30,364 nt of DNA from Methanobacteriota archaeon (GTDB lineage Archaea; Thermoplasmatota; Poseidoniia; Poseidoniales; SP79). Positions 1 through 30,364 of the stretch are shown piece after piece (the stretch's first letter is position 1; each line of letters starts with the position of its first letter). Below the pieces are notes generated by a model. The model saw nothing but the letters and a program-made list of their open reading frames with translations, was not told the DNA's origin and did not search any database. A program made the translations under genes and the position numbers. The stretch spans positions 7,093-37,456 of the forward strand of contig PAZI01000016.1 of assembly GCA_002715545.1 (NCBI GenBank), read 5' to 3'.

Positions 1-65
1 GTTTTAGTTTTCCCTTTTAAATAATTAACTTCTGTTTTTTTGGGTCTGCCTTTTTTCTTTTGCAT
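1..65 (-). CDS. Small basic protein, N-terminus only (runs off left end)
   Basis: The first 21 codons of a leftward gene are visible. The start ATG (bases 63-65) directly abuts the stop codon of the nuclease gene upstream (66-68), so it belongs to the cro-nuclease operon. The protein begins MQKKKGRPKKTEV, a lysine-rich stretch with a GRP core like an AT-hook, which suggests nucleic-acid binding. Similar basic N-termini occur on phage small terminase subunits and on small DNA-binding proteins, but too little is visible to choose between them. No function is assigned. Confidence 0.55.
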   Translation of the reverse strand, partial: MQKKKGRPKKTEVNYLKGKTK

Positions 66-371
66 TTACTTAACTCCTATCCAGTTCGATAAAGTTTGAA
101 CCACTAACGGCTCCTGGCGATCTCGCCATAAAACCAGGAGATCATTTTCTCCCAGCCATCTCTCTAATTGTACAAAGCCAGATCCGTTTGCCCTGGCTTT
201 TAATTCTGCAACAAGTGGCTGTTCACTTTTGCCATTAATATAAATATCAACATCACCAGAAAAACGTCCTCCAGCTGCACCAGATAGGGGAACACGCTCT
301 GCATGAATGTTATTATCCTTGAAGATATTAACCAGCTCACGTTCCCTTCTAGCTCCTTTGTCCCTGGACAT
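66..371 (-). CDS. PD-(D/E)XK nuclease, Holliday-junction-resolvase-like
   Basis: A 101-residue protein starting MSRDKGARRERELV. Residues E11, D40 (in FSGDVDIYI) and E56-x-K58 (VAELKAR) are laid out as in small archaeal-type Holliday junction resolvases and related phage PD-(D/E)XK nucleases. The basic N-terminus with an early glutamate, the RVPLSGAAGGRFSGDVD region and the ExK strand are typical. It probably cuts branched DNA formed during replication, recombination or packaging. An in-frame ATG exists 15 bases upstream (386), but I chose 371 because it follows the cro stop by one base (TAA-A-ATG), which indicates coupling. It is the second gene of the leftward early operon. Catalytic fold is well supported; the exact substrate is inferred. 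Confidence 0.8.
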   Translation of the reverse strand: MSRDKGARRERELVNIFKDNNIHAERVPLSGAAGGRFSGDVDIYINGKSEQPLVAELKARANGSGFVQLERWLGENDLLVLWRDRQEPLVVQTLSNWIGVK

Positions 372-372
372 T

Positions 373-594
373 TTACCCACTGGCATCTCTCATATAAAAA
401 TCATTAGGCATAACAGCTCCTCCAGTTACTTCCATGATTCGGTCCATGTTTGGACCTTTTCGTGGAATGAGCTGGTCCTGGTGACCAGGTGGCAAGCACC
501 AACGCCTGGCAATTGTTGCCTCCTTCTGTCCCAGTTTTTTGGCTAAGGCTCTATAACTCAAGCCGTTTTCTTTTCTCCAGGTGTCAAGTTTCAT
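373..594 (-). CDS. Cro-like HTH transcriptional regulator
   Basis: A 73-residue protein with an XRE-type helix-turn-helix across residues 11-33 (GLSYRALAKKLGQKEATIAR), followed by a short tail ending MPNDFY, a pattern common in Cro-type regulators of temperate phages. It is the first gene of the leftward operon and diverges from the CI-like gene at 932, the usual lambdoid switch arrangement. A candidate promoter (TTGACT-N17-TTATAT, 603-631) overlaps a degenerate copy of the phage operator. The -10 lies so close to the ATG that the mRNA would have almost no leader, and no Shine-Dalgarno is visible. I infer that it represses its own promoter and the lysogeny genes. Confidence 0.78.
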   Translation of the reverse strand: MKLDTWRKENGLSYRALAKKLGQKEATIARRWCLPPGHQDQLIPRKGPNMDRIMEVTGGAVMPNDFYMRDASG

Positions 595-602
595 AACTTT
601 AT

Positions 603-631
603 ATATAAATTAGCTTGACGTATTTAGTCAA
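603..631 (-). promoter_or_regulatory. Leftward early promoter of the cro operon
   Basis: On the minus strand a -35 TTGACT (626-631) is followed after 17 bases by TTATAT (603-608). Transcription would begin about at the cro ATG (592-594), giving a leaderless or nearly leaderless mRNA. The -35 lies inside the operator-like element at 616-630. Based on consensus matching only. Confidence 0.5.
616..630. promoter_or_regulatory. Degenerate phage operator between cro and the CI-like operon
   Basis: TGACGTATTTAGTCA keeps the left half of the perfect palindrome seen at 1760-1774 and 5462-5476 (TGACGT-N3-ACGTCA) and four bases of the right half. It sits between the divergent early promoters: leftward -35 on one side and a possible rightward TTGACG-N18-AATACT (615-644) on the other. 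It is probably a weaker binding site for the phage repressor or Cro. Confidence 0.5.
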
Positions 632-702
632 TATCATTAATACTTTTTTTTATATATTGTCATTAATCGACACTGTATAAAAAAATGAGAAGGGCAACTT
701 TA

Positions 703-957
703 ATGTTAAAAGCATTTAATCAACTTATATCACCAAATGGAGAATTTTTTCCTTTGTATAGAAACTTTACTCTGCACAAATTTAAAAGCTATTCATGCAA
801 TGCTAAATGGTTGTTTAAAACTAGAGAGAGTTTAGACATGAAGTGGTCTTTAAGACCCAGAACAATATGGGGTTGGGGTTTAAAAATTAGACTTAATTCA
901 CCACCCACAAATGTAACAAGGAGTAAATTTAATGAAGAGCTTAGGAACATTAAATAA
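703..957 (+). CDS. Small protein of unknown function upstream of the CI-like gene
   Basis: An 84-residue ORF. An in-frame ATG exists at 685, but 703 has the better ribosome site (GAGAAGGG, 687-693, about 9 bases upstream). The protein is basic and aromatic-rich, with a run around SLRPRTIWGWGLKIRL near the middle; I see no signal peptide, membrane segment or recognisable motif. Its last 26 bases overlap the start of the CI-like gene, so the two are probably co-transcribed and coupled. It carries no CCWGG site, unlike most genes here. It may be a small regulator or leader protein of the lysogeny operon, or a non-functional ORF; no function assigned. Confidence 0.45.
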   Translation: MLKAFNQLISPNGEFFPLYRNFTLHKFKSYSCNAKWLFKTRESLDMKWSLRPRTIWGWGLKIRLNSPPTNVTRSKFNEELRNIK

Positions 958-1720
958 CCAGTTAAGTTACTGGAAAGGACAGAAGAAAACGATTATCAAC
1001 CTGGAACAATACGAGAGGTTTCAAGGTTGTAAAAATAAATTAGAAGAGAAAGTAAGGAACAATGTTATGAACAAATTAGTTAAAACTGCTATGGATAGGC
1101 ATGGTTACACGCAAGCGAGTTTAGCTAAAGATTTAAATAAACCACCAGAAACTTTAAATAGGTGGCTTAAAAATAAACAACAAGCAAGTCGTGAAGATAT
1201 TTTGAAATTAGCTGAATTATTAAAGCTACCCCCTGGAGTGGTCCAGTTTGAACCAGAGCCACTAGTGATTAAAACAACTAGAAAATATTTAACCAGGGAA
1301 ACAATTACTTTAGAAGAGCCAGGCGAATTGCATCTTCCAACAAACTTTCCCTCTCATTTTGAGGGACAACGAATAGATACAACCAACCCCAATTCATTAA
1401 AATATGGAGCTGTTGATATTTTTGATATGCAAAATAAAGATAAGTGCATAGATGAAAGGTGCATAAACGCCTGGTCAATATGTGGAGCTGTCATAAATAA
1501 TAAAGAAGTAGTATTAACTGGACGTTTAATGCCAAGATCAGATGGTGATACATTTGATATAACTGGAATGTGGGAAGTTTCTAAAAGTCAAGAATCGCCA
1601 AACTATAAAGGAATCGTTGTTAAATGGGCGTGTCCAGTAGTGATTCAGCTGCAAAAACAATTCATTGACGCTTACACTGATGGAGAAAAAAATAACTATT
1701 CTAATCAAGGGTACAGCTAA
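932..1720 (+). CDS. CI-like HTH regulator (putative phage repressor)
   Basis: A 262-residue protein. The start at 932 is supported by AAGGAG (918-923) eight bases upstream. Residues 1-45 are a basic extension; an XRE-type helix-turn-helix spans about 51-96 (HGYTQASLAKDLNKPPETL followed by NRWLKN). The C-terminal half (about 110-262) has none of the Ser/Lys dyad of LexA/CI S24 peptidase domains that I can see, so RecA-stimulated self-cleavage is not supported. Position opposite cro and upstream of the operator-controlled recombination operon fits a lysogeny repressor. An alternative is an activator of that operon. HTH is confident; repressor role is inferred from context. Confidence 0.7.
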   Translation: MKSLGTLNNQLSYWKGQKKTIINLEQYERFQGCKNKLEEKVRNNVMNKLVKTAMDRHGYTQASLAKDLNKPPETLNRWLKNKQQASREDILKLAELLKLPPGVVQFEPEPLVIKTTRKYLTRETITLEEPGELHLPTNFPSHFEGQRIDTTNPNSLKYGAVDIFDMQNKDKCIDERCINAWSICGAVINNKEVVLTGRLMPRSDGDTFDITGMWEVSKSQESPNYKGIVVKWACPVVIQLQKQFIDAYTDGEKNNYSNQGYS

Positions 1721-1758
1721 ATCAGCGTCAATGTAATAAAAAAAATATATCAAGTGTA

Positions 1759-1787
1759 TTGACGTATAACGTCATCTAAATTAAGTT
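1759..1787 (+). promoter_or_regulatory. Promoter of the recombination operon
   Basis: TTGACG (1759-1764) is a good -35, followed after 17 bases by a weak TAAGTT (1782-1787). The -35 is embedded in the perfect palindromic operator at 1760-1774, so repressor binding would block polymerase. The first gene begins at 1817 behind the Shine-Dalgarno GGAGGA (1802-1807). Inferred from consensus. Confidence 0.5.
1760..1774. promoter_or_regulatory. Palindromic phage operator (TGACGT-N3-ACGTCA)
   Basis: TGACGTATAACGTCA is a perfect inverted repeat with 6-base arms and a 3-base centre. The same palindrome occurs in front of the integrase (5462-5476) and in degenerate form at 616-630. All three overlap a TTGAC-type -35 element. 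This is the expected arrangement for a repressor regulon; which of the two HTH proteins binds is unknown. Confidence 0.72.
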
Positions 1788-1816
1788 CTTCTAGTATTAC
1801 TGGAGGAACTTTTTTT

Positions 1817-2755
1817 ATGAAACCTTTAAAATTAGATTGGGCAACACGCCATAATTACCTACATCATAGTAACCCTATGAGTAAAACAAGGTGTAAAGCC
1901 TTCTTTGATAAGGTTCATATTCGACCAATAATTTCAAACGCCTGGGAAATTGTTAAGGACGAAAGTTCTGACAGTAATAAAAAGAAAGATGCCTGGGCAA
2001 TTCTTGATAAGTTAGATCCTAAACGTAACCAATCAGACAATGCTAATATGTTAGCTGGACGAGCTGTCCAGGCAATATGTGACCTGGTTATTATTAACGA
2101 GGTTAATTTTGAGGATGCATTGAAATCTGTAAAGGAAGAAATGCTACTTAAATATCAGCATAGAGAATGGGACGAAGGGACAGACTTTAAAAAGTATGAA
2201 CGCTACTACGAAGAAGTCCCCTTAGTAGCTAAAAATGCTATCGTAGGATTGACCCAGGCATTGCAAAAAGAAAATAAAATTGTTGGTGAAACTGATTACT
2301 TGGGATTACTTCCAGGGAATGAGCTGCCATATAATACCAAGCCAGATTATGCCAGGCGTGGAGATTTAAAAACTAAATGGTCAACTATAGCAGATACAAA
2401 AACTGGCTGGAGAGCTGCGTCCCTTCCCTCAACTTTATCTGGACCTTTCGAGAAATCGCATCTTTACCAGGTGGCTGGTTTCTGGGCAGTAAATGGAGGA
2501 CTTCCTCCTTTCCTGGTGTACGCTAACGCAAAAGACTACAGATTATTTACCCAGGAAAACTCACCAGAGCTGTCTAATGAAAACCTGGCACGAATTGTTA
2601 AAAACATTATTAAAGAAAATCTAGTAACAGAAAGATTTTTAAAAGTTTGCAGCACTAAAGAACAGTTATTTGAGATGGTGACAACTGACTATTCTGAGCT
2701 TTGCTGGAGAGAACCACCAGGCATAATTAAAGAGGCAAGGAAATTTTGGGAATGA
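1817..2755 (+). CDS. PD-(D/E)XK exonuclease, RecB/YqaJ-type
   Basis: A 312-residue protein, first gene of the recombination operon. It contains the RecB-family pattern: a helix GRAVQAICD (81-89), RRGDLKTK with D183, then ADTKTG with D193-x-K195, then HLYQVAGFW with Q218 (the QxxxY-type motif IV). Such phage proteins degrade one strand of a double-strand end, leaving ssDNA for the annealing protein encoded next to it. The next gene starts in an ATGA overlap with its stop, so the pair is translationally coupled, as in other phage exonuclease/annealase modules. The start is fixed by GGAGGA ten bases upstream. Fold and role are well supported; polarity of digestion is not visible. Confidence 0.82.
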   Translation: MKPLKLDWATRHNYLHHSNPMSKTRCKAFFDKVHIRPIISNAWEIVKDESSDSNKKKDAWAILDKLDPKRNQSDNANMLAGRAVQAICDLVIINEVNFEDALKSVKEEMLLKYQHREWDEGTDFKKYERYYEEVPLVAKNAIVGLTQALQKENKIVGETDYLGLLPGNELPYNTKPDYARRGDLKTKWSTIADTKTGWRAASLPSTLSGPFEKSHLYQVAGFWAVNGGLPPFLVYANAKDYRLFTQENSPELSNENLARIVKNIIKENLVTERFLKVCSTKEQLFEMVTTDYSELCWREPPGIIKEARKFWE

Positions 2756-3477
2756 AGAAAACAATACCAGCTGAAAGTTTAAGTGGAACAACTATACAGA
2801 TTATTTCTGCAATGGAAAAAGCTAACGCTAGGGTCCAAGAAGAAGGCGTTAGAGTAAAAGGTGGTAAAAATTATCTCCAGGTATCTAAACGCATGGAAAT
2901 ATTTAGAGAAACTTTTGGTATGGATTACGGAATAGATACTAATATCCTGGTCAATGATGGTGAAAAAGTTGTAGTAAAAGCACTTATAACTTTAAATGAA
3001 AAAGTTATTGGATCTGGACTAGCTGAAGAAGTAAGAGGTAGAGTTTTTGCAAATTCACCTCATGTAAATGAAACTTCTGCTGTAGAAAATTGTGAAACTT
3101 CAGCTATAGGCAGAGCTTTGGCAAGCCTGGGCATACATGGTGGCGAGTATGCCAGTATAAATGAAATAGAAAAAGCTGAAGGAATAAGAAAGCACCAGGA
3201 AGAAAACGAAGAGCTGCCAGATGTAACAATACAAGATATACCAGATGATCCAGATGTGAGTAGAGATGAAAATATCTGGCATAAAAAGTCTATGCAATGG
3301 ATAGCTGAAATCAATGCTTGCAAACACCAGGCACAACTTCACGCCTGGATAAATAAAAATTATTCAAGTATTGAGCAGCTGCGTGCATGGGACAAAACAA
3401 ATAATAAATCTTTAGCAGATGATATTGAACACACTTTTAACATGAGAAAGGAACAGCTTGAAAATGGCGAACAGTAA
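2752..3477 (+). CDS. ssDNA annealing protein, ERF/Rad52-like
   Basis: A 241-residue protein. The ATG at 2752 overlaps the exonuclease stop (ATGA) and has AAGGAA (2737-2742) nine bases upstream; a TTG six bases earlier is less likely. The middle part carries the signature VENCETSAIGRALASLG followed by GGEYAS, found in ERF and related Rad52-superfamily phage annealing proteins (Sak/ERF type). The C-terminal third is acidic and probably variable. Together with the upstream nuclease it forms a two-component recombination system for double-strand break repair, concatemer formation or circularisation. The family call rests on motif recognition; sub-family (ERF versus DUF1071-type) is uncertain. Confidence 0.75.
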   Translation: MKKTIPAESLSGTTIQIISAMEKANARVQEEGVRVKGGKNYLQVSKRMEIFRETFGMDYGIDTNILVNDGEKVVVKALITLNEKVIGSGLAEEVRGRVFANSPHVNETSAVENCETSAIGRALASLGIHGGEYASINEIEKAEGIRKHQEENEELPDVTIQDIPDDPDVSRDENIWHKKSMQWIAEINACKHQAQLHAWINKNYSSIEQLRAWDKTNNKSLADDIEHTFNMRKEQLENGEQ

Positions 3478-3823
3478 TTTTAGTAATGCAAGTATAAGGG
3501 CAATAGGTAATATAACAGTAGGACCAGACTACCAGGTGAGTTGTTGGATCCAGCCAAAAAATAACTGGGACAATGAAACAAATCAACCAATTCCTATTAC
3601 TACAGAACAGTACAATCAAATAAATGAGATAGTTGATTTAATGATTAAAAATAATTTTCAAATGTCAGTAAATATTCGTGAACGCAATGAAGGTCCAGCT
3701 CGAGGTTGGATAGATAAAATGAAATTTAAAATGTTTAATAACTCAGATGACTTAACACCTGGTCAATCTTCAGCTGCACCTAAAACACAAGGAGAAAAAG
3801 TTGGTTTCCCTGGTAAGCGATAA
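3464..3823 (+). CDS. Possible ssDNA-binding protein of the recombination operon
   Basis: A 119-residue protein whose start overlaps the annealing gene. ATG 3464 is chosen; an in-frame TTG at 3458 lies closer to the AAAGGAA ribosome site (3447-3453) and cannot be excluded. The N-terminal 85 residues alternate short hydrophobic strands (IRAIGNITVGPDYQVSCWI), compatible with a small beta-barrel, and end in a polar low-complexity tail (SSAAPKTQGEKVGFPGKR). A folded domain with a disordered tail next to a nuclease and annealase recalls phage SSB proteins, but I see no diagnostic OB-fold motif. Function is inference from context. Confidence 0.6.
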   Translation: MANSNFSNASIRAIGNITVGPDYQVSCWIQPKNNWDNETNQPIPITTEQYNQINEIVDLMIKNNFQMSVNIRERNEGPARGWIDKMKFKMFNNSDDLTPGQSSAAPKTQGEKVGFPGKR

Positions 3824-4061
3824 AAAATCTATGTTCACTCTTGAGGAGGCAGCTCCATATTTTTATGGGGAAGAGTGCCTGGATAAAGATGGGAAGGTAA
3901 TAGATAAATACAAACAGCGTTTACGTCATGCTTGCAAATTACACAGAGAAGGAAAAGATGGGATCTTCAATTTTAAAATGGGTTCAAAAGTTTATATACC
4001 CAAGGTCGTTATCGAAAGACTCCAATCAGAATTTACCAGACATGATATTAATTTATCCTAG
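3801..4061 (+). CDS. Excisionase-like HTH DNA-binding protein
   Basis: An 86-residue protein. The TTG start at 3801 is preferred over ATG 3831 because AAGGAG (3789-3794) lies six bases upstream, while 3831 has no ribosome site; the TTG start overlaps the previous gene. MFTLEEAAPYFYG followed by a basic helix and FKMGSKVYIPKVVIERL resembles helix-turn-helix/MerR-type excisionases, whose typical ending is a glycine turn, a YIP strand and a final helix. Its place at the end of the recombination operon, converging on the integrase, fits a recombination directionality factor. A simple transcription regulator is the alternative. Confidence 0.62.
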   Translation: MVSLVSDKKSMFTLEEAAPYFYGEECLDKDGKVIDKYKQRLRHACKLHREGKDGIFNFKMGSKVYIPKVVIERLQSEFTRHDINLS

Positions 4062-4200
4062 ACCTGGTGAAATGTGCGTAGTTGTTAATGGTAAATTTTA
4101 TTCAATTCCATACGACCAGGTACAGTTTCAAAAATTAGCTTATAATATTTTAGCTGCGTCCCTCGAAGGAGCTATGCACAATAAAAAACCCTCTGAATAG
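4042..4200 (+). CDS. Small protein of unknown function, last gene of recombination operon
   Basis: A 52-residue ORF beginning MILIYPRPGEMCVVVNGKF, overlapping the end of the excisionase-like gene by 20 bases. The reading frame extends upstream to 3928, but that part lies inside the preceding gene and is unlikely to be coding. No clear ribosome site precedes 4042; an ATG at 4072 with weak GGTGA is another possible start. The stop codon lies at the edge of the terminator hairpin (4188-4205). No family recognised. Confidence 0.45.
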   Translation: MILIYPRPGEMCVVVNGKFYSIPYDQVQFQKLAYNILAASLEGAMHNKKPSE

Positions 4201-4210
4201 AGGGTAATTT
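4183..4210. terminator. Hairpin terminator between converging operons
   Basis: ACCCTC (4188-4193) and GAGGGT (4200-4205) form a 6-bp stem with a 6-base loop. On the minus strand it is followed by a T-run (bases 4183-4188 are A on the plus strand), a good intrinsic terminator for the integrase transcript. On the plus strand it is followed by the weaker AATTTCTT, so it may also end the recombination operon. Confidence 0.6.
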
Positions 4211-4274
4211 CTTGGGTCCTTATATACCAGGAAGGTTAATTACACCCCCCTGGTGACTCTTAAAACGAGATTAT

Positions 4275-5426
4275 TTAGAGAACTGACCCTACTCTTTGTA
4301 GTTTTGCCCTGGTTGAGTTCTCTTTTAATGGGTCATCAATCCAATGTCCGTAAACCTCTTCAGTAATCCTGGTACTACCATGACCGAGCTGTTCACTAAT
4401 GGTTTTTATATCTTCTGGGATCCTGGCAATTAAGATACTTGCGTAGAAATGTCGGAGGTCATGCCAGGTGATTTGATCGTAGCCAGCTTTCTTACAAGCT
4501 GCTTGAAGTTTTTCTCTTTTCCTTCTTCTTTTCTGATAGCTGCCATCTCTAGTTGGAAAAACATATTTATCTGGAGCTGGTCTACCTTGTTTAATAAACA
4601 GCTCTTTTAATTCTGTTACTAATTCTGGAGCATGGTCCAGGTAAACTCTTCTTCTACTGTTATAAGTTTTTGGATCTCCAATTTTAGTATATTGTTTTGA
4701 TTTACCTTTAAGAGCTTTAGTAACATGAACAGTTAAATTATCCAGGTCAACATCACCCCAGGTTAATATAACTTGTTCACCAGATCTTAAACCAGTAAGG
4801 GCTGCAAACTTTGTCATAAGCTGCCAAGGCTCTGACAGCTCATTCAATGCAGCTGTTATAATATGTGGGTCAATCTTTTTAATTTTCTTAACTGAAAGAT
4901 TGCTTTCCCTGGTGAGCTTGGGTTTTATTTCATTAAATGGATTAGATGTCCTACAGCCTTTTTGAACTGCAAAACTAAACATACCTCTTAAATATGCTAG
5001 GTGTTCCTGGACAGTTCTTTTAGCTCTGCCTTTAACCAGCTGCTGCATTATTTCAAACTGGACCATTGATGCTGTTATGTAATGAACTTTAAGATCTGCA
5101 ACTAGCATACTGTCAACAGTATAATTTAAAAAGCTATTACAAACAAAATGAACTCTTGTGTAAACGCTATCACCAACCTCGCCTATATCAAACCTAGATT
5201 TTTCTTCTTTGATATATTCCTGGACTAATGTTTTCATTGTCCATTGAAAGCTGCCACTAGAGTTATTAGGTTTTTCGTTTTCTAATAATTTTAAATATCT
5301 ACCAGCTTCTTCTTTAGTATTAAAATAAGATCTAGGTCCTTGACGTTTACCCTGGACCATAACCCTTTCATCTACACACCATTGCTTTAAATATGGAACA
5401 TAATTTAATTTAACATTGTCTAACAT
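4275..5426 (-). CDS. int: Tyrosine-recombinase integrase
   Basis: A 383-residue phage integrase. All catalytic residues are visible: R214 (TGLRSGE), K253 (DPKTYNSRRR), H322-x-x-R325 (WHDLRHFYAS), H349 (EQLGHGS) and the nucleophile Y359 (EEVYGHW). An N-terminal arm-binding region (about 1-60) and a SAM-like core-binding domain (about 65-170) precede the catalytic domain. AAGGAGG lies just upstream of the start. The gene reads away from the attP at 5521-5760, the usual arrangement. The perfect operator 5462-5476 overlaps its likely promoter, so integrase expression is probably repressed in the established lysogen. Very confident in family and activity. Confidence 0.96.
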   Translation of the reverse strand: MLDNVKLNYVPYLKQWCVDERVMVQGKRQGPRSYFNTKEEAGRYLKLLENEKPNNSSGSFQWTMKTLVQEYIKEEKSRFDIGEVGDSVYTRVHFVCNSFLNYTVDSMLVADLKVHYITASMVQFEIMQQLVKGRAKRTVQEHLAYLRGMFSFAVQKGCRTSNPFNEIKPKLTRESNLSVKKIKKIDPHIITAALNELSEPWQLMTKFAALTGLRSGEQVILTWGDVDLDNLTVHVTKALKGKSKQYTKIGDPKTYNSRRRVYLDHAPELVTELKELFIKQGRPAPDKYVFPTRDGSYQKRRRKREKLQAACKKAGYDQITWHDLRHFYASILIARIPEDIKTISEQLGHGSTRITEEVYGHWIDDPLKENSTRAKLQRVGSVL

Positions 5427-5461
5427 ACTGTAACCTCCTTGATGTTATATACTTAATATAA

Positions 5462-5476
5462 TGACGTTTAACGTCA
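5462..5476. promoter_or_regulatory. Palindromic phage operator upstream of integrase
   Basis: TGACGTTTAACGTCA is the second perfect copy of TGACGT-N3-ACGTCA. On the minus strand it overlaps TTGACG (5472-5477), a candidate -35 of the integrase promoter 46 bases upstream of the start codon. The -10 is unclear. Like the copy at 1760, it is followed by a TTAAGT-containing AT-rich stretch. Confidence 0.7.
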
Positions 5477-5520
5477 ATTACAAGGCTGTTACTGGTGACC
5501 CCCCTATTTCATAAAATAGT

Positions 5521-5540
5521 TTGGTCTACGATTGGTCTAT
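5521..5540 (+). repeat. Integrase arm-type site, left copy
   Basis: TTGGTCTACGATTGGTCTAT matches the segment at 5717-5736 in 17 of 20 positions, and each copy contains TTGGTC twice. The two copies flank the tRNA-like core at comparable distances (about 37 and 118 bases). That is the layout of P and P' arm sites bound by the integrase N-terminal domain. Inferred from arrangement. Confidence 0.55.
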
Positions 5541-5576
5541 AAAAAAAATAATACTTAACAAAATCAATATGTTAAG

Positions 5577-5599
5577 TGGTCGGGGTGACCAGATTTGAA
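5577..5599 (-). other. attP core: 3' end of a tRNA-Pro-like gene
   Basis: Read on the minus strand this segment ends in the tRNA signature TTCAAATC (T-loop), CTGGT (T-stem), CACCCCG (acceptor strand), A (discriminator) and CCA. A CACCCCG-A-CCA end with a complementary CGGGGTG 5' end is typical of bacterial tRNA-Pro. Upstream, the T-stem pairing partly fails and no anticodon arm is present, so it is not a tRNA gene but a 3' fragment. This is what a phage carries when it integrates into a tRNA 3' end and restores it. It lies 150 bases upstream of the integrase. The tRNA identity is inferred from the acceptor sequence. Confidence 0.78.
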
Positions 5600-5673
5600 A
5601 TGGTGTCCCCCATCATTTTTTATGACTGCCTATGATCGTACATCAACGTCATTTGTTGATATTCCTACCATTA

Positions 5674-5709
5674 CGTTGATCTTCGGTCAAGAGCGTTGAT
5701 GTTCGGTCA
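5674..5709 (+). repeat. Tandem 16-base repeats in the attP arm
   Basis: CGTTGATCTTCGGTCA (5674-5689) and CGTTGATGTTCGGTCA (5694-5709) differ at one base and are spaced exactly 20 bases apart, about two helical turns. Such phased repeats fit binding sites for an excisionase or a host bending protein beside the arm sites. Confidence 0.55.
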
Positions 5710-5716
5710 CGAAAAT

Positions 5717-5760
5717 TTGGTCAATGATTGGTCTATGATTAAAAAATGCTATAGACCAAA
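5717..5760 (+). repeat. Integrase arm-type site, right copy, with inverted repeat
   Basis: TTGGTCAATGATTGGTCTAT (5717-5736) repeats the left arm site. Its end GGTCTAT (5730-5736) is mirrored by ATAGACC (5751-5757), giving a third, inverted copy of the TTGGTCTAT motif (5751-5759 on the minus strand). Confidence 0.55.
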
Positions 5761-5904
5761 TGCTGGTGAGAGCTACCTGGTATCGAGGAAATATTACATT
5801 TTGCTACATAAAATCAAGGAGGACCTTTCGTAGTGTTGTAAGTTCACCAGGCAACTCTCATAACTATGGTGAGGAATACTCGACACCCCAAGCACTCCTC
5901 ATAA

Positions 5905-6366
5905 CTATTCAGATTTTATATCTGATATTAAACCAGTTCTGTAACCATTAGTTCTATCAAAAGTTAATACTTCTTTCCTGGGTTCATGTATGTAGCTGCA
6001 ATGTACCCAGCCAGTATTACCACCTTTGTAGCATTCCAGAATTAATTGATCGAACTCCAGATTATCTTTTATATATTCAGCTAGTACCATGTTACTTATG
6101 CCTGGCACTTCAAAGTCTGCTGCTTGTCCTTTAGCGTGTTGAGATTTAATAGAGCTGCCAATAGCCAGGCATAACTCTGGACATCTATAGCCAGAAGAAA
6201 CAATAAAAGGTCTGCCATAGTGATCTCTTATAGGCTGCAAAATATTTTCACAAAGTTTTTTCATAGCCTCAATGTGATCTCTGTCTGGAAAATTATCTAT
6301 CCCTTTTCGCTCTGCTGTTTGAGATTTTATCATTTCATCCAGGCTAAAATTTTCTGAAAGCTGCAT
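5905..6366 (-). CDS. M15-family peptidase endolysin
   Basis: A 153-residue protein with the zinc-peptidase pattern of the M15/VanY-like family (Peptidase_M15_3): SSGYRCPELC (57-66), SQHAKGQAADF with H77 and D84, and WVHCSY with H122, the third zinc ligand. Length fits single-domain phage endopeptidases that cut the peptide cross-links of peptidoglycan. No signal peptide is visible, so export depends on the holin. The start codon overlaps the stop of the 29-residue microprotein (TAATG). It is the last gene of the rightmost late operon, and serves as the lysis enzyme. Family confident; cleavage specificity not visible. Confidence 0.88.
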   Translation of the reverse strand: MQLSENFSLDEMIKSQTAERKGIDNFPDRDHIEAMKKLCENILQPIRDHYGRPFIVSSGYRCPELCLAIGSSIKSQHAKGQAADFEVPGISNMVLAEYIKDNLEFDQLILECYKGGNTGWVHCSYIHEPRKEVLTFDRTNGYRTGLISDIKSE

Positions 6367-15574: not shown

Positions 15575-18500
15575 ACGCAACCTTCCAGACGCTCGAGCAT
15601 TTTTTGATCTTGCTCTATGTCTGCTTTTATTTGTCTTGGTGTTGTTGTTGAAAGAATTTCATTACCAGTTGCATCATCAATTTTTACATCTGGTATTTCT
15701 ATATCAAGGTCCTCGATAGGTTCCTCAACTTTAGTACTTTCCTTATACCCTTTCAGATCATCTAAGGCAAGGTCATAATCATCTTTTATTTTTTCAGCAT
15801 TTCTATGTAAAGGTGAATTTTCTGTAACAATCAATCCACCATTATCAGCAATATCTACATCAAATCTTCCTGGATATTGTTCAGTAACAACTTTTGTAAG
15901 TTCGTCCAATGAAAGTGGACCTTTGGCAAAAGGATCATCTAAATCAACTTTGCCAGTTGTTAAATTTGCTTCTTCAATAATTGTGTCTAAATCTGGCTGA
16001 CTATCAGCTGCTTGGTCAAATAAATCTTTGTCTACTTGCCCTGGCGTTTGATCTCCTGGTTGATCTGGTCTACCAGTTTCTGCCCTCGTGGTGACTCCAC
16101 CAGGTTCCTGGCGTACAGTTCCTTCTCCCCCCAGCTTGTAGTCGATTGGGATTGGTTTAAGGAACTCTCTGCTATCTTCGAGGAGAGTTTGCCTTTCGCC
16201 TTTTGGCTGGTTGTTGTCGATTTCAAAGTAGCCATTAACTTTTCCTTTTATTTCATTATAATGTTTTTTAGGTAAATTTCCAATCTCTTTCATTACTTCT
16301 AATGGAATTAATCTACCTTGAGCTATAAACCTTCTAATCATTCGGTTCATTGCATTTTCAAATGTTACATCTACATTTCCTAGTGTAACATCATAACCAG
16401 CATCTACTAATAATTTAATGTTTCTTTCTATAGTTTCAAGTTTTCCCCCAGTTTGTGGAAGTACAATATTATCTCCATTTCTTACTGCATTAAATAAAAT
16501 AAGATCATTAATCATTGAGCTTTCACTATGAACAGCGTTTGCTCCTATACCACCTTGGTATTCTGGTAATATTTTTTTTGCTTCATCACTATCGGCTATT
16601 ATAGCTCTCATTTTCCTGGCGATTGGATTAGCTATTGAGCTTTTACCAGACGCTGGTTGTCCTAATAATATTACTGCTTTTTTTTCTCTTGCTACTGAAT
16701 TTACTGGTGGAGTTATATTATCATCTAACCAGGCAAATTTTTCTAAATATGAATATAAAGCTGCAATACCAGTTGTGTAACCTTTTACAGTTTTTTCTAA
16801 TCCATACTGATCTTTAATTATAAATGTACGATTTTCTAAATATTCTTCTGTAAGATCTGCAAGTGACTTTTTACCAGGTTCAATTGTTTCTGGTATATCG
16901 TACATTTGATTGACAGCTTTTTTAACAGCTGGGTGCTGTTCTATTTGCTCAACAGTAAAATTACCAGCGTTCATTTTACTTTCCAGGTCTAATCTTTCAT
17001 TTAAATCTTCCTGGAAAGCCTCTCGTGGAGGGTCTAAATCATTTATTAAACTGTCTGCTTGTTGTTGAGATTGAGTTCCCCCTGGCTCGTCAATTCCCTG
17101 GATCTCTTCATCCTTGCCTGGGTCCCTTTTCGTTTTAGCTTGGTAATTGTTTCCAGCAGCAAGTTCCTCGATAGATGAAAGTTCACCTCGTTCAATTGCT
17201 CTTCTGATAAACTGGAGAAAATCTGCTGTAGCGTTCTTCGTGTTTCCATCTTCCCTGGCTCTTTTTGCTGCCTGGTTGAGTTGCTCTGATAGTTCGCCTT
17301 TTCTGTTTGCGAGTTTTTCGAGGAAGTGGATCGCTTTTTTGTCATCATCTACTCTCTGTTCGTTTGCTTTTTTTGCTAATACGTTTCCTTCTTCTGCAAT
17401 ACTATTAGCATTTTTAATCAATGTTGCAAAGGTCCTGGTATCTTGTTTTAATTCTTTTACTGCATTGTCCAGGACTTTAGCTCTTTCTAAATAATAACTT
17501 TCTGCCAGGACCTCTTCACCAAATAAACTTGTTTGTTTTATTTGATCTGTTGGTAAAGTTTTTACCTGGTTAATTATTGACGTTGCTTGTGCAATGTTTG
17601 ATGGCTGTGTTTTTGATAAAACATTTATTGCTGCACTTTGCAGCTCTGGATTATCTGGTATCAGCTCACCAACTTTTGCACCAAAATTTGCTGGTATAAC
17701 TCTATTAACAACCATTAAAAAATTATCTTCAGATAAATTTACCATATTTCTAGCTGTTCTAACTAAACTAGAATTTGGAGGTAATTCTTTTACCTGGCTA
17801 GGATCACCTCGTAAAACTTTTGCAGCGTCAATAGCTGAACCAGATCCCTGGGCAATATTTTTAAGAGCTGCCATTATTCGTGCCATATCGACAGTAACAC
17901 CATCTGTTTCTCTTAAAACGTATGCTTTTAATCTTACGTCCTGGTTAGGATCTGTTTTTTTAATTCTTTTTGCTAATCCAAATCTTTGGTGTCCATCTGC
18001 AACAAATTGTCTACCATCTGCATATTCATAAATAGTAATTAAATCTGCTTTCATTGGGTCCCATTTAGTAACCCCTTGCAATGTTGGCAGCACTCCAAAT
18101 TCATCTCCACCTTCTTTATATTGAAATGACCTGGCATCTACTTCAACTTTATCAAAATCTACATCAATTATATCTACATATTGTGGATCATTGTCATAAA
18201 CGCTTTTTGGAGGGACTACATCAGATATTGGCTGTTCTGGTATATTTGGGACCTCATTAGAGTTTATTGCCCTCTCTGCCTCGTCTAATCGAGATAAATG
18301 TTCAGCTGTATCAGTAATTGGCTGGGTTTCGACAGTTTCTATATCATCAGCTACTTCATTTATAGCCTGGTTGTTTTGTGCCAGCTCTTCGTTTTTTCGT
18401 AAAAAATAATCAATATCTTGTTCTTTATACCCAAGCTCCTGGAGTTTATATCTTAATTCTTCTTTACTTTTTGCAGCAGCTTTTTTTAATTGTTCAATAT

Positions 18501-19362
18501 TTTTTGCAGCTGCCTCGGTAAATACATCTATTCCTTTGCGTACTAAATTAGCTGGTATTTTTAATCCTTTAACAGTTCCAGCTATTGCGTATGGAGTTCC
18601 AAAACCAAACAATCCACCAGCTGCTATTCTGGTATAATAATCTGCCCAGGACATTTCTAAACCTAGTTCCTCATACCATTGAGCTACTGATGGTTGTAAG
18701 ATAGCTTCAGAGCCAGCTCCTATGATTGCCTCGGTCAAAGCTATTTTAAATAAACCACCACTCATTCCACCACCAAGTATCATAGACCCAACAACAACTG
18801 GTTCATGGATAACACCACCAGCTTGACCAATAAATCGAGCAGATCCTTTTATAAATCCTGGTGAACGTGCAGCTATTTCGTCAAAGTTTTTTCTTTTAGT
18901 AGTTGCAACCTCCTTACCTTGTTGCTCTATTTTTTCTAATGATAAATCCTGGAACTCTGGATAAAGGTCTGGATTTTCTTTTATATGCTTTAAATATCTG
19001 TTTGCTTGTTTAACATAAGCTGAATTACCATTGCGTAATCTTTCATCTAAATCATTTAAAACACCAATTCTTAATTGAGTTGCTGGATTATAAATTTGCG
19101 ACATTCCAAAAAAATCTGCAAGTTTATCTTTTTTACCAAACACAAGATTGGGTTCTCTTTCCTTCATTATATCAATGATTGGTTCCCAAACTTCCTCTAG
19201 GACAATAGCTGGTGACCAGGTTGTTTCATTGGTCATAAACATATTGTAACCAGCTGCTAGGTTTTGTTGAAAAGACCCAGTTGCTTTGTTAGTAAAGTTT
19301 GTAGCGTAAGGCTGGACAGAATTATTAGCTGTCGCACTATTGTCATTAAATAAAAAACTCAT
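15571..19362 (-). CDS. Giant internal virion protein with ParB-like and zeta-toxin-like domains
   Basis: A 1263-residue protein. Residues 175-265 contain glycine-rich hydrophobic stretches that could span a membrane. Residues about 396-520 resemble a ParB N-terminal domain, with the signature FVADGHQRFGLAKR (453-466). Residues about 895-1035 resemble zeta toxin: Walker A LLGQPASGKSSI (899-910), ADSDEAKKILPE (923-934) and HSESSMINDLILFNAV (945-960). Residues 1050-1263 are acidic and low-complexity. Its start overlaps the 909-residue protein (ATGA) and its stop overlaps the next. I infer ejection into the host with an effector role. Domain calls are by motif; activities are not shown. Confidence 0.75.
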   Translation of the reverse strand: MSFLFNDNSATANNSVQPYATNFTNKATGSFQQNLAAGYNMFMTNETTWSPAIVLEEVWEPIIDIMKEREPNLVFGKKDKLADFFGMSQIYNPATQLRIGVLNDLDERLRNGNSAYVKQANRYLKHIKENPDLYPEFQDLSLEKIEQQGKEVATTKRKNFDEIAARSPGFIKGSARFIGQAGGVIHEPVVVGSMILGGGMSGGLFKIALTEAIIGAGSEAILQPSVAQWYEELGLEMSWADYYTRIAAGGLFGFGTPYAIAGTVKGLKIPANLVRKGIDVFTEAAAKNIEQLKKAAAKSKEELRYKLQELGYKEQDIDYFLRKNEELAQNNQAINEVADDIETVETQPITDTAEHLSRLDEAERAINSNEVPNIPEQPISDVVPPKSVYDNDPQYVDIIDVDFDKVEVDARSFQYKEGGDEFGVLPTLQGVTKWDPMKADLITIYEYADGRQFVADGHQRFGLAKRIKKTDPNQDVRLKAYVLRETDGVTVDMARIMAALKNIAQGSGSAIDAAKVLRGDPSQVKELPPNSSLVRTARNMVNLSEDNFLMVVNRVIPANFGAKVGELIPDNPELQSAAINVLSKTQPSNIAQATSIINQVKTLPTDQIKQTSLFGEEVLAESYYLERAKVLDNAVKELKQDTRTFATLIKNANSIAEEGNVLAKKANEQRVDDDKKAIHFLEKLANRKGELSEQLNQAAKRAREDGNTKNATADFLQFIRRAIERGELSSIEELAAGNNYQAKTKRDPGKDEEIQGIDEPGGTQSQQQADSLINDLDPPREAFQEDLNERLDLESKMNAGNFTVEQIEQHPAVKKAVNQMYDIPETIEPGKKSLADLTEEYLENRTFIIKDQYGLEKTVKGYTTGIAALYSYLEKFAWLDDNITPPVNSVAREKKAVILLGQPASGKSSIANPIARKMRAIIADSDEAKKILPEYQGGIGANAVHSESSMINDLILFNAVRNGDNIVLPQTGGKLETIERNIKLLVDAGYDVTLGNVDVTFENAMNRMIRRFIAQGRLIPLEVMKEIGNLPKKHYNEIKGKVNGYFEIDNNQPKGERQTLLEDSREFLKPIPIDYKLGGEGTVRQEPGGVTTRAETGRPDQPGDQTPGQVDKDLFDQAADSQPDLDTIIEEANLTTGKVDLDDPFAKGPLSLDELTKVVTEQYPGRFDVDIADNGGLIVTENSPLHRNAEKIKDDYDLALDDLKGYKESTKVEEPIEDLDIEIPDVKIDDATGNEILSTTTPRQIKADIEQDQKMLERLEGCV

Positions 19363-25641: not shown

Positions 25642-25644
25642 TCT

Positions 25645-26375: not shown

Positions 26376-26879
26376 TTAAGTAACAATATACTCAATGATG
26401 AAACTTAGATCACCAGCTGTATCTCCAGCTGCGTCAAATTTCAAACCAACATGATAATAACCACCTGGATCTGTTGTATCTCCAGCGTCTTTATAGACTT
26501 GCTGTCCCATTAAGTTAATATTTCTTGCCTCAAATGCTACTTCAGTTCCAACAGTAACTGCTGCTCGTAAGTCTGTAATAGCAGATGCATAGCAATCGTC
26601 ATCTTTTGCTGTCACATTGCCATCAGCTGTATATAAACCTACGTCACAAGTGTTTGTTGATCCAGAGTCTAAATCATCATTGAACAACATAATACTTGTG
26701 ATAGCTGCATTTGTTGGAATTGGAGCTAACATTACTGTGTCAGTTGCTGATAAATCACCAGCAGCAAGAGCTATTGTCCCACAAGCTACACGCTTAACGC
26801 CATGTAAATTGTGAGCAGCGTTCATTTCCATAGGACTTGCATGGAAATTAGTAACTAGAGTTGTATTAACATTCGCCAT
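26376..26879 (-). CDS. Accessory capsid/decoration protein
   Basis: A 167-residue protein directly downstream of the major capsid gene. It is rich in Ala, Asp and Thr with alternating strands (TIALAAGDLSATDTVMLAPI) and ends GDLSFIIEYIVT, a beta-rich outline common in phage decoration or head-fibre proteins. It has GGAGG upstream and is followed by the strong terminator. Position suggests a protein bound to the capsid surface. No family firmly recognised. Confidence 0.65.
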   Translation of the reverse strand: MANVNTTLVTNFHASPMEMNAAHNLHGVKRVACGTIALAAGDLSATDTVMLAPIPTNAAITSIMLFNDDLDSGSTNTCDVGLYTADGNVTAKDDDCYASAITDLRAAVTVGTEVAFEARNINLMGQQVYKDAGDTTDPGGYYHVGLKFDAAGDTAGDLSFIIEYIVT

Positions 26880-26889
26880 AATCTACCTC

Positions 26890-27753
26890 CTACGCTGACT
26901 CGTCACAATTAATTTCTACAACCTTCGCTTCCTCCATACGAGTACTTCCGAATGTTGCACAGTAATAGACTTGAGTTGAATAACTCTTGTCTGCACGCTC
27001 GTCAATTTTTGCCATGACATCTTTACCGACAGCCAATTTAATACCATCTTCTGCCCAGGCAAAACATTTACGGATGCTACTTGCTACAGTTAAACGATTT
27101 GAAACTATAAATTTAAATCCCAAAAACGAATCTACAAGACCTTGAGAAAGAGCTTTCACTGTATTGAAATCGCTAGATGTGACTTGCGTTGTATTTAACA
27201 ATGCAGAAATTTGTGCTGGTGCAACTGCGATATAACGAGGTATATCTGGGTCCACATCAGCAGCGTCCAGGATTTCTTTAGCCGATAACAGTTTGGCAAG
27301 CGTTAAATCAGCAGAGCCATGAGCAATCTGATTAGCAGACAACATTGTAGTTGAAGTTGCACCAGCTTTACCAGTTAAGGCTGTGCCAGTTGCAGCTGCA
27401 ATGATCTTATCGTCCATTGCTTTGCCCATTGCATTAGCAGCTGTTTGAGCATAAACACTTGTTGGATCAGCCAATAATCTTACTTTATCAGCATCATCTA
27501 TAAGGTCAGCCCATTCAAACGTAGACATCACTGCCATTCGTCTTGAGTGGGGGGTTTCAACCAGGGGTGTATCCCCATGGCGAGTAGTTCTTTCGATAGC
27601 AGCTACTGAACCAATCTGGTCAAAAAATGCTTTTTCACCAGTTACACTTTCCTCATCAACGGATCCTCTAAGTCTGGAACCTTTCTGAGTAGATAAAAGC
27701 GTAATATTGGAGCTAAATTGCTGCACGAAAGCTGTCGTGATTTGTGTACTCAT
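26890..27753 (-). CDS. Major capsid protein
   Basis: A 287-residue HK97-fold capsid protein. The frame is open to 27798, but ATG 27753 is chosen for the GGAGAT in the preceding leader and because MSTQITTAFVQQFSSN is a typical capsid start. Family features: RHGDTPLVETPHSRR (about 64-78, around the N-arm), FEWADLIDDADKVRLLADP, ANAMGKAMDDKIIAAATG and a C-terminal DKSYSTQVYYCATFGSTRM. These match the Phage_capsid_2-type podovirus major capsid group. No frameshifted longer form is evident. The leader contains the 17-base AT-rich element shared with 11711-11727. Confidence 0.85.
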   Translation of the reverse strand: MSTQITTAFVQQFSSNITLLSTQKGSRLRGSVDEESVTGEKAFFDQIGSVAAIERTTRHGDTPLVETPHSRRMAVMSTFEWADLIDDADKVRLLADPTSVYAQTAANAMGKAMDDKIIAAATGTALTGKAGATSTTMLSANQIAHGSADLTLAKLLSAKEILDAADVDPDIPRYIAVAPAQISALLNTTQVTSSDFNTVKALSQGLVDSFLGFKFIVSNRLTVASSIRKCFAWAEDGIKLAVGKDVMAKIDERADKSYSTQVYYCATFGSTRMEEAKVVEINCDESA

Positions 27754-27760
27754 TTGTACA

Positions 27761-27785
27761 TCTCCTATATTAAAATTAAAATTAA
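27761..27785 (-). promoter_or_regulatory. AT-rich translation/late-expression element, copy 2
   Basis: Bases 27769-27785 are identical over 17 bases to 11711-11727, again followed by TCTCCT (AGGAGA on the coding strand) upstream of the major capsid start. See copy 1. Confidence 0.5.
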
Positions 27786-27824
27786 GATCGCTACCCAATT
27801 ATTTGGACGAAAGGTTTTTGCACT

Positions 27825-27881
27825 TTACGTTTGCCAACGTAAGGACCTAATGGCTACCCTTAATTCCTGGTTGCCCAGGAA
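27825..27881 (-). promoter_or_regulatory. Two hairpins in the capsid gene leader
   Basis: TTCCTGG/CCAGGAA (27864-27881) has a 7-bp stem; on the coding strand its loop is GCAA, a GNRA tetraloop. TTACGTT/AACGTAA (27825-27842) has a 7-bp stem and loop GGCA. Neither is followed by a T-run, so they look like RNA-stability or processing elements rather than terminators. Confidence 0.5.
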
Positions 27882-27884
27882 ACT

Positions 27885-28724
27885 CTATTCATCTGGATAA
27901 AGTTCTCCATTTATCCTGGTAACTTCATTCACATACCAATCATGCTGGGGGTGCTTGCTATCCCAGTATGGAGTATCTGGTGCTGATAGCTCTGCTATTT
28001 TCCCTTCTAATTCATGTTTGGTTGCAGCTCCAGAAGTTTTAACACCTTCTAATTTATCTTCTCCCATTTTTTCTTTCATAAAAACGCCCATGTTTGAAAC
28101 CATTTTTATAAAGTCTGGGTGATTGCCCAGGAGAGAACCATCAGCAAGTTTTACTTCATGCAAACTTTCATCACCTTCAGTAAATTGAGCTGACACAGCT
28201 CTAGCCAGTTTTACTCTATCATCAAATGCTGGTCCATAATGCTGTTTCAGCTCATTAGTTTTTTCTTCTAATTGAGCTTGTTCAGCAGCTGTTACTTGAG
28301 CTGTGTTATCTACCAGCACATTATTATACCAATCAAGTAAAGATTGAGCTTGTTTAGTATTTAATCCAGCAGCATGAGCAGTATTTGTAAAGCCACCCAT
28401 AAGCTGTTCATTAACTTCTTGCCCTTCTGGAAGTTTATTTGACAATTCATATTTATCAGCAGCCTCTGGTCTGCCTAATTTAGAATATATTTCACTCCAT
28501 TGTTCTGGGGTAGATGACTTTCCAGGTAATGCAATTTTATCTGCACCTATCATAGATTGAGCATTAACATAGCTCTTTGCTAATGATGGTACGTCCTGGA
28601 TAGTTTCTAATGATTTATGTCCCCTTATCTCTTCTGGAATTGACGCCTTCCAATCCACAGATGCTTGTCCATTAGCTTGATCGACTAAATCAGCTGCTGG
28701 AGCTTCTGCTACTTCTTCACTCAT
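27885..28724 (-). CDS. Capsid assembly scaffolding protein
   Basis: A 279-residue acidic, helical protein lying between the portal/Bbp19 genes and the major capsid gene, where podoviruses encode their scaffold. DWKASIPEEIRGHKSLETI (about 24-42), DVPSLAKSYVNAQSMIG (44-60) and KIALPGKSSTPEQWSEIY follow the usual pattern of phage scaffold/assembly proteins (short proline-rich start, then LAKSxxxxQxxIG helix). The C-terminus (YWDSKHPQHDWYVNEVTRI) could contact capsid protein. AAGGAG lies ten bases before its start. Confidence 0.8.
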   Translation of the reverse strand: MSEEVAEAPAADLVDQANGQASVDWKASIPEEIRGHKSLETIQDVPSLAKSYVNAQSMIGADKIALPGKSSTPEQWSEIYSKLGRPEAADKYELSNKLPEGQEVNEQLMGGFTNTAHAAGLNTKQAQSLLDWYNNVLVDNTAQVTAAEQAQLEEKTNELKQHYGPAFDDRVKLARAVSAQFTEGDESLHEVKLADGSLLGNHPDFIKMVSNMGVFMKEKMGEDKLEGVKTSGAATKHELEGKIAELSAPDTPYWDSKHPQHDWYVNEVTRINGELYPDE

Positions 28725-28929
28725 CTTGTTTAATCTCCTTTTCGTCTGTTATTGATCTTAAAATAAATAGCACTACGCTACGTTGACCTTCTAAAAATGC
28801 CATCTCCAGGGCATCACTAGAAAAAGTTGATTGATCTACATGAAATCTTTTTTGCATATCATCTAAAACTTTTGTTCCATCATCTGTTGCAAACAGAACC
28901 TGGTAGTTTTGTTTTAAATCTTTATCCAT
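28717..28929 (-). CDS. Bbp19-like small protein next to portal
   Basis: A 70-residue protein with KRFHVDQSTFSSDALEMAFL and AFLEGQRSVVLFIL (44-57), the pattern of Bbp19-family proteins, which are encoded between portal and scaffold in many podoviruses. The precise role is unknown; position suggests capsid assembly. Its start overlaps the portal stop (TAATG) and its stop overlaps the scaffold start. Confidence 0.8.
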   Translation of the reverse strand: MDKDLKQNYQVLFATDDGTKVLDDMQKRFHVDQSTFSSDALEMAFLEGQRSVVLFILRSITDEKEIKQDE

Positions 28930-30364
28930 TAACTTAGAGCTTGAAGAGCTGGTGCAGCATTCCCAGCAGCTTCAGCTGCATCTAATGCGTCTTGTTTCTC
29001 TTGTTGAGCAGCCTGGGCAGCTTGTCTTTCATTTCTGACAGCTGAAACCTCTTCATCACTTCTTATAGCCGTTGCTGGGACTCCTAGAGTCTTTATGATA
29101 TGTTTAGACATTCCATCAATATCAATATGGTCCATAATTCCTGGATCAACCTGGGCAAGTGGAGCCATAATTTCTAAGAGCTGTAGAGCTGATTGAACAT
29201 CTCCCTGGCGTTGAGCTTTTGCCAATGGAGATACATAATCAATTTCAATGTCATTTCCTTGCAAGATCTCTGGTGCATTTGGAAAAGCATTGGTTCTCGA
29301 AAGAATATTATAAGTTCTTTCGATTAATGGTTGTAGTAGCTCTGCTTGTTGGCGACCCATCACAGGACCCAACAGTTTCATCTTTTCTTCATTTCTCTGA
29401 ATTACTTCTGTTGCTGTCATGTTCGGTGACGCTCCCAGGATTAATTGGTCCACATAGAACGCCTGGCGTATCATTTCACGCCTTTGCTGCTCCATCTGCA
29501 TACCAAGAGGATTACCACTATTAATATTAAGTGGTTCAATGTTATCCCTGGTCCCAGATCGTTTAAAGTTTAATCCACCTGGAACAGTTCTAATAGGCAA
29601 CATAAAGCCATCATCTGGAACTATAAGAGGAGGATCTACCAATTTCTGAGCATATCGGATAGATACCTCACTCATTTTATTTAACATTTTTGTATCAGCA
29701 AGAGCTGTCATTGCTGGAGATCTACCATACCCAATTTCAAATGAAGATTTTAAATACCTGGGACAACAGTATGGCAATTCATCAAAGCCACCTTCTGATA
29801 AGGTCACCTTCTCGTCATGGTCCACATAAATAGATGCAAAAGGCTTATTAATGTTGGTAACTTTTGTTATATCTCTTTCATTATTTGGAAAAACTGCATG
29901 AAGTAAAGTAGTAGTGTCATAAGGTTTATCTTTAATTTCTGTTAATCTTTTTGTGGATAATACCTTCTCACCAAATCTTTGTAGCACTGCACGATTTGGC
30001 ATCTTAAATGTTCTATAAACTGTATCAACTCTACCCTTTTCATCTTCTGATAAATAACATTCTGATATGTGTCTGGTTGAAAATTGGAGTTGATACTTAG
30101 GGTCACTTTCAATAAACATTACAGCTGTACCAAAACAGATTAAATCATGGTAAAGCTCATGCACTTGTTCGTGAAAGTTTGACCTGGAAAAAGCCAGGTA
30201 CATAACATCTTCTACAGATTGCAGCCATTCTTTTGCTTCATCATTTCCATCAAGTTCTGCATTACGAAAGCGTAAAGAAAACCAGGCTGTACTGGAATTA
30301 GTAAGCATACCATGTAAACTAGCTGATAATAGTTCAGCTGCATGAAGAGCTGTACCATCAAAAA
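28929..30364 (-). CDS. Portal (head-tail connector), 5' end outside window
   Basis: At least 478 residues are visible and the frame stays open to the right end, reading FDGTALHAAELLSASLHG before the internal ATG at 30308, so that ATG is not the start. Features of the podovirus head-tail connector family (PF12236): the helix ending STAWFSLRF, FGTAVMFIESDP, GYGRSPAMTALAD, the VPGGLNFKRSG region and the conserved QLILGASPNMTATEVIQR with RQAELLQPLIERTYNIL. The C-terminal tail is Gln/Ala-rich. Twelve copies form the DNA entry channel and tail attachment point. Confidence 0.9.
   Translation of the reverse strand, partial: FDGTALHAAELLSASLHGMLTNSSTAWFSLRFRNAELDGNDEAKEWLQSVEDVMYLAFSRSNFHEQVHELYHDLICFGTAVMFIESDPKYQLQFSTRHISECYLSEDEKGRVDTVYRTFKMPNRAVLQRFGEKVLSTKRLTEIKDKPYDTTTLLHAVFPNNERDITKVTNINKPFASIYVDHDEKVTLSEGGFDELPYCCPRYLKSSFEIGYGRSPAMTALADTKMLNKMSEVSIRYAQKLVDPPLIVPDDGFMLPIRTVPGGLNFKRSGTRDNIEPLNINSGNPLGMQMEQQRREMIRQAFYVDQLILGASPNMTATEVIQRNEEKMKLLGPVMGRQQAELLQPLIERTYNILSRTNAFPNAPEILQGNDIEIDYVSPLAKAQRQGDVQSALQLLEIMAPLAQVDPGIMDHIDIDGMSKHIIKTLGVPATAIRSDEEVSAVRNERQAAQAAQQEKQDALDAAEAAGNAAPALQALS

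Follow-up and report, generated by a model that had tools for sequence, protein, structure and literature searches.

The DpdA enzymes of Escherichia phage CAjan and Enterobacteria phage 9g are reported to insert 7-deazaguanines into DNA by base exchange, which is described as protecting the DNA from many restriction enzymes (PMC6884629). For CAjan the contexts GA and GGC are cited, and in the same source the DNA of Pantoea phage MED16, whose dpdA is a singleton not accompanied by genes for preQ0 synthesis, is reported to contain 7-amido-7-deazaguanine and to be cut by EcoRII, the enzyme for CCWGG (PMC8306585). Here we analyze a stretch of 30,364 nt (GenBank assembly GCA_002715545.1, contig PAZI01000016.1, positions 7,093 to 37,456 of the forward strand), called the window below, which its gene content identifies as part of a temperate marine podophage of the HTVC010P type and in which CCWGG (CCAGG/CCTGG) is strongly over-represented. 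We consider it somewhat more likely than not that CCWGG is where a DpdA-like base-exchange enzyme of one branch, here clade I, encoded by the phage, does its work, and that the genome has evolved to fit this enzyme.

The DpdA of MED16 is homologous to the protein in question (32% identity, same invariant residues); it differs in belonging to a second branch, clade II, and in a CCWGG ratio of 1.2, and the cutting of MED16 DNA by EcoRII is in keeping with this placement. In CAjan and 9g the reported contexts GA and GGC are not enriched in their own genomes, unlike CCWGG in the window. Phage restriction-site avoidance offers a likeness in that three relatives of the window (G008, G016 and G025) are without any CCWGG and each phage examined has its own missing words, but the sign is opposite here, as CCWGG has accumulated. 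Class 2 DISARM marks CCWGG, the same motif, but is a host system. HIP1 of cyanobacteria is likewise a short word that occurs genome-wide far over expectation; it is not known to follow a phage-encoded enzyme. The literature searched, to which bioRxiv and most subscription journals did not belong, contained nothing joining pelagiphages with queuine or phage restriction-site avoidance with CCWGG, and the MED16 paper (PMC8306585) was the only one there to join DpdA with CCWGG.

CCWGG is attracted at the DNA level

The initial annotation of the window had counted CCWGG by hand, and a recount reproduced its numbers exactly: 217 sites (133 CCTGG and 84 CCAGG) spread over positions 1–30364, and 56 CCWGG (31 CCTGG and 25 CCAGG) next to 14 GGWCC in bases 1–6360, while CCGG and GGCC occur neither in this segment nor anywhere else in the window. 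Its chance expectation of about 20 sites agrees with the 20.4 obtained from base composition, and only against this null does the claimed tenfold excess stand (10.6-fold). An order-1 model expects 32.4 sites, an order-2 (trinucleotide) model 54.5 (4.0-fold excess) and the maximal-order model 46.4 for each strand word, hence about 93 altogether. Shuffling synonymous codons gave 47 coding CCWGG compared to 197 observed (4.2-fold), and a Markov chain Monte Carlo (MCMC) null over synonymous codons, which preserves the protein, the codon usage and the dinucleotides at codon boundaries, gave 54.0 ± 4.8 compared to 193. As these stricter higher-order and codon-preserving nulls expect more sites, the robust excess is about 2.3- to 4-fold; the signal thus persists under the kind of null model that the initial annotation had named as a check. 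The density is uneven: two tail-fibre intervals hold 2.8 and 3.7 sites per kb and the capsid gene 3.3, while the remaining 11 of 14 counted intervals range from 4.8 to 12.8 per kb.

By regarding codon contexts we found that leucine is encoded by CTG in 43 of 61 cases where C precedes and G follows, compared to 3 of 98 (A_G) and 3 of 86 (T_G), and that glutamine is encoded by CAG in 58 of 65 C_G contexts compared to 2 of 74 across the other three _G contexts. In NCN codons the third base is C in 24 of 32 cases before TGG but in only 10 of 187 before TTN. Altogether the window uses 70–89% of the counted synonymous opportunities for CCWGG, and the sites occupy all three reading frames. Both the completion of the motif by CTG and CAG codons and the spread over frames had been noticed in the initial annotation, whose suggestion of a DNA-level signal is borne out: since the codon-preserving nulls are exceeded and the codon contexts favour completion of CCWGG, the excess reflects a pull at the DNA level towards the complete motif. 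Conservation between the window and its sister contig G001 is not used as evidence here, because CCWGG (143 of 200 sites exactly conserved) does not stand clearly above other GC-rich words (CCAGH 179 of 242, CCACC 35 of 46).

The gain of CCWGG is accompanied by a loss that the initial annotation had not noted. The words CCTGA, CCTGC and CCTGT (together CCTGH, or DCAGG on the other strand) occur 5 times in the window compared to 134 expected, so that CCTG almost always continues with G. Other single-base variants of CCWGG are not lost in this way in the window except CCSGG, which has the missing CCGG within it.

A DpdA-like gene in the sister contig

The nearest contig, G001 (IMG/VR 3300030328_001411, 36,004 bases), is 83% identical to the window over 25.2 kb and contains 288 CCWGG and no CCTGH. 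The tail-fibre region (about 8.2–12.6 kb of the window) does not align with G001, and the window has nothing equivalent to a 6.6-kb part of G001 (28,662–35,296) with the genes for DpdA, TerS and TerL. The DpdA-like gene, a predicted 7-deazaguanine transglycosylase, was recognized by the DpdA profile phrog_887 (E 1.7e-29), which also matched four further records. At the thresholds used, its protein gave no match in Pfam or PADLOC and no meaningful one in NCBIfam, and no relative was returned when the PDB sequences were searched with the DpdA profile or in a scan with the homologue P0031. The predicted structure (shallow alignment, pLDDT 71.7) retrieved generic barrels only and would be compatible with a barrel fold of the tRNA-guanine transglycosylase (TGT) type. 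The aspartates D50 (in DNGAF), D91 and D204 are shared without exception by 19 homologues including that of MED16; they are candidates for the two catalytic aspartates of TGT. As its sister carries the gene, the phage of the window presumably carries it as well.

CCWGG enrichment follows one DpdA clade

Of the 570 confirmed stretches matched by a profile for more distant homologues, the best 80 were kept as loci, and a second query added 11. A tree of 89 DpdA rows splits with full support into clades I and II. For loci of at least 4,500 bases with a DpdA piece of at least 150 residues and at least 5 expected CCWGG, identical proteins being counted once, a CCWGG ratio of at least 1.36 was observed in 36 of 39 members of clade I but in only 2 of 50 members of clade II (L231 with 18 observed/11 expected and L232 with 9/6); the median ratios are 2.41 and 0.72.

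Clade I reaches well beyond the podophages. In contigs of 65–67% GC, whose DpdA is 50–56% identical, no podophage terminase, capsid or tail-B match was found. Nevertheless CCWGG ranks first among the 512 5-mers in L170 (221/93), L171 (193/80) and L172 (122/51) and fourth in L169; this ranking covers loci of at least 6,000 bases, and the scoring of L170-type kin those of at least 5,000. The L170-type group also loses CCTGH, to about 0.1 of expectation (CCTGA 15/153, CCTGC 23/223, CCTGT 12/105). When 29 clade-I loci were grouped at three or more shared proteins besides DpdA, nine loci stood alone (the short L137 aside), next to the podophages and the L170 type; six of the nine, namely L169, L173, L175, L177, L179 and L180, are enriched, and L176, L178 and L247 are not. 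When all 5-mers were contrasted between 22 clade-I and 28 clade-II loci, with these last three outside the 22, CCWGG came out on top (t 8.1) and CCTGC and CCTGA at the bottom. CCWGG enrichment thus tracks one DpdA clade across phages of 37–67% GC with few or no further genes in common.

Several side observations were made on these contigs. The tail genes of the 65–67% GC contigs look siphophage-like by eye, and in the contrast between the clades GATCC comes next after CCWGG (t 5.8), with 888/406 in the contigs of the L170 type. In Pseudanabaena phage Pam5 and in a Flyfo siphovirus (L142, 17262–17795; L144, 19513–19989) the DpdA homologue adjoins a gene annotated as VUT family/vitamin uptake transporter, which perhaps transports preQ0.

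Distribution among related podophages

The initial annotation had proposed a comparison with related phages, and these range from zero through neutral to enriched: besides the three relatives without any CCWGG, Pelagibacter phage Hodr has 1 site compared to 20 expected, HTVC010P (16/15) and G032 (56/49) are neutral, and many others are enriched. The CCWGG state is therefore not simply a family trait. All 30 contigs with a DpdA-like protein of at least 69% identity are enriched (2.5–7.4-fold over order-1 and 1.8–6.2-fold over order-2 expectation). In the 46 judgeable records, 30 have the gene and are enriched, 6 are enriched without it, 10 have neither, and none has the gene without enrichment. 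The tally counts loci of at least 3,500 bases, each represented by its longest contig, the distant-DpdA loci L140 and L142–L144 set aside; 63 of 109 records, the window among them, could not be judged for DpdA. DpdA carriers stand at four places in the terminase tree, some forks of which are weakly supported, and two gene-less kin are losing CCWGG (L034 with 11 losses and 4 gains, L074 with 6 losses and 1 gain).

Proposed mechanism and alternative explanations

Since unrelated carriers of one DpdA branch show the same packing, CCWGG is probably the site of the clade-I enzyme. More tentatively, at somewhat less than an even chance, we suggest that the 5-bp near-palindrome CCWGG is the specific place where this clade inserts 7-deazaguanine, and that nearly unrelated carriers saturate their genomes with CCWGG and erase CCTGH. 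As judged from the enzyme family, the enzyme would swap one guanine of CCWGG for a 7-deazaguanine, the source of which would probably be host preQ0. Modified sites would benefit the phage, probably by making its DNA invisible to host nucleases, which is the obvious guess because 7-deazaguanines are reported to protect phage DNA (PMC6884629), and this benefit would let CCWGG copies build up at synonymous positions. CCTGH might be lost because the enzyme works on it incompletely or harmfully, or alternatively because unmodified CCTG is a target of a host nuclease. That CCTGH is purely a host restriction target seems less likely, as its loss recurs in unlike high-GC contigs. The strength of this loss is uneven among relatives, and G038, G041 and the majority of single clade-I loci show it mildly or not at all.

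A number of observations weigh against the proposal that CCWGG is the site of a phage DpdA. The window itself is without a DpdA gene; that of G001 lies beyond the stretch matched by the left end of the window. G007, G017 and G022 are saturated with CCWGG and have no DpdA match at all; G007 (10 losses, 14 gains) and G017 (5 losses, 8 gains) are at balance and show no decay, and G022 has no carrier nearby in the terminase tree. L034, L038 and L077 also scored as enriched without the gene, as did L257 (G064, gene-less but perhaps incomplete). Conversely, L178 (0.42), L176 (0.93) and L247 (0.98) belong to clade I and are not enriched. As positive controls for DpdA phages that enrich their own motif, CAjan and 9g were negative, with ratios in CAjan of 0.96 for GA and 0.81 for GGC, so that enrichment is not a general outcome of carrying dpdA. 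Local shielding of the residual rare words through overlap with CCWGG found no support, as such overlap was above that of control words in 3 and below it in 4 of 7 contigs and affected 0 of 74 such words in the window. Finally, the rows of the trees and tables are related, and the statistics therefore overstate their independence.

The initial annotation had listed methylation, a host nucleoid or uptake signal and phage-specific protein binding as candidate causes; the evidence most favours an enzyme encoded by the phage, but not a methyltransferase. As the annotation had stated for the window, no methyltransferase was found among its 20 distinct proteins scanned with PHROGs (10 also with Pfam). 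Among 38 related records the C5-methyltransferase family PF00145 was found in only two, namely the L054 and L074 contigs (L082 and L083; E 7.4e-59 and 5.5e-32), and not in G001; both contigs are DpdA-less and, at ratios of 1.10 and 1.34, are not classed as enriched. A phage-encoded CCWGG C5-methyltransferase was rejected on the absence of PF00145 from the enriched records tested.

The alternative that survives best is a self mark imposed by the host: hosts would methylate CCWGG, by a Dcm-like enzyme or a DISARM-type system held back by methylation, phages would gain by marked sites, and DpdA would merely co-occur as the same hosts favour it. This explanation accounts better for the gene-less saturated phages, including the two without decay. 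For DISARM, repression by methylation is described, as opposed to activation by a sequence (PMC9142583), so that additional marked sites would pay off. As other relatives have zero CCWGG, some hosts do act on this word. However, the signal, CCTGH loss included, follows one DpdA clade across contigs of 37–67% GC with few shared genes, and a mark on CCWGG alone leaves CCTGH at 0.1 unexplained; we therefore consider a host mark unlikely.

A signal of the whole host, for instance a motif for uptake, for the nucleoid or of Chi type, or a hyper-abundant word that the host chromosome shares in the manner of HIP1, would fit the high density of CCWGG on both strands and in all frames, but is improbable given that closely related phages have none and that the signal tracks a protein clade across unlike genomes.

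A by-product of avoiding many restriction sites, in which forbidden words push codons into CCWGG, deserves mention because so many words are near zero. The window also lacks or nearly lacks GGCC, GCGC, CCGC, GAGAC, CATCG, CAGTC and several 6-bp palindromes, and each of the 12 phages examined (the window, L001 and L085–L104) is without its own set of 4–6-bp words. These differing lists look like restriction avoidance, as if directed against a dozen or more systems. Displacement of this kind does occur: in Hodr (L001) GCWGC is avoided (3/28) and GCCGC/GCGGC are strongly raised (34/4), which is plainly codon displacement and differs from the behaviour of CCWGG in the window. When a hand-made list of 29 avoided words was forbidden in the MCMC null, the expectation rose only to 58.7 ± 4.3, and with CCTGH forbidden in addition to 71.0 ± 4.7, both far short of the 193 observed; the by-product explanation was rejected on this ground and appears very improbable. 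As a separate observation, the missing words are often non-palindromic 5-mers (e.g. GAGAC, CATCG, GAAGG and GGTGA).

We give next to no credence to a Vsr-type very-short-patch repair converting CTWGG to CCWGG. The window does have less TTGG/CCAA than expected (121.5 compared to 190.3 on each strand), but this explanation was rejected: the repair should drive up CCTGH, of which there is next to none, and would not cause the attraction of C before Gln-G or of NCC before AGG, and in the window CTAGG is not depleted (20/18) and CTTGG only to 0.66.

Other features of the window

The major capsid protein (26890–27798, minus strand; PF19821, E 1.7e-86), together with kindred structural genes, places the window with the HTVC010P-like podophages; it is 57–66% identical to Pelagibacter phage records (22 listed of 23). 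A tyrosine integrase (4275–5426, minus strand; PF00589, E 3.9e-19; phrog_1) is encoded, hence the assignment as temperate, and an M15 endolysin is present; the protein cluster of the integrase comprises 16 listed contigs. A repressor-like helix-turn-helix (HTH) protein is encoded at 932–1720 on the plus strand (PF01381, E 3.2e-9). Adjoining the integrase, 41 nt at 5577–5617 are identical in the window and G001 inside diverged DNA. On the minus strand they resemble the 3′ end of a tRNA, which by eye we take to be tRNA-Pro, although Rfam and ARAGORN reported no tRNA there; given this resemblance and the neighbouring integrase, the stretch is a likely attP.

Both ends of the window match G001 in blastn. 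The left end (51–649), with a RusA-like resolvase and small HTH genes, corresponds to G001 28061–28661 (82.4%; RusA 92% and HTH 82% identical as proteins), and the right end (29659–30364), in the portal gene, to G001 35297–36002 (88.7%). A protein of 1,263 residues from the virion region (15571–19362) contains a Pfam Zeta_toxin match (residues 892–1029, E 9.5e-14), a kinase-like domain here inside a podophage structural gene. The host genome was not found: a search of genome contigs with the capsid gave one Desulfobacterales contig, homologues of the integrase gave no useful host name, and the sole match in the integrase scan was again G001.

Implications

If CCWGG is indeed the working site of the clade-I enzyme, the target of a DNA-modifying enzyme would be readable from the genomes of its carriers, whose composition would record its sequence specificity. 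Marine phages would then use a 7-deazaguanine mark of the size of a restriction site, longer than the contexts reported for CAjan. To gain copies of a modification motif, as opposed to shedding restriction sites, would be a strategy unfamiliar from the conflict of phages with their hosts, and would raise the question of what rewards more modified sites.

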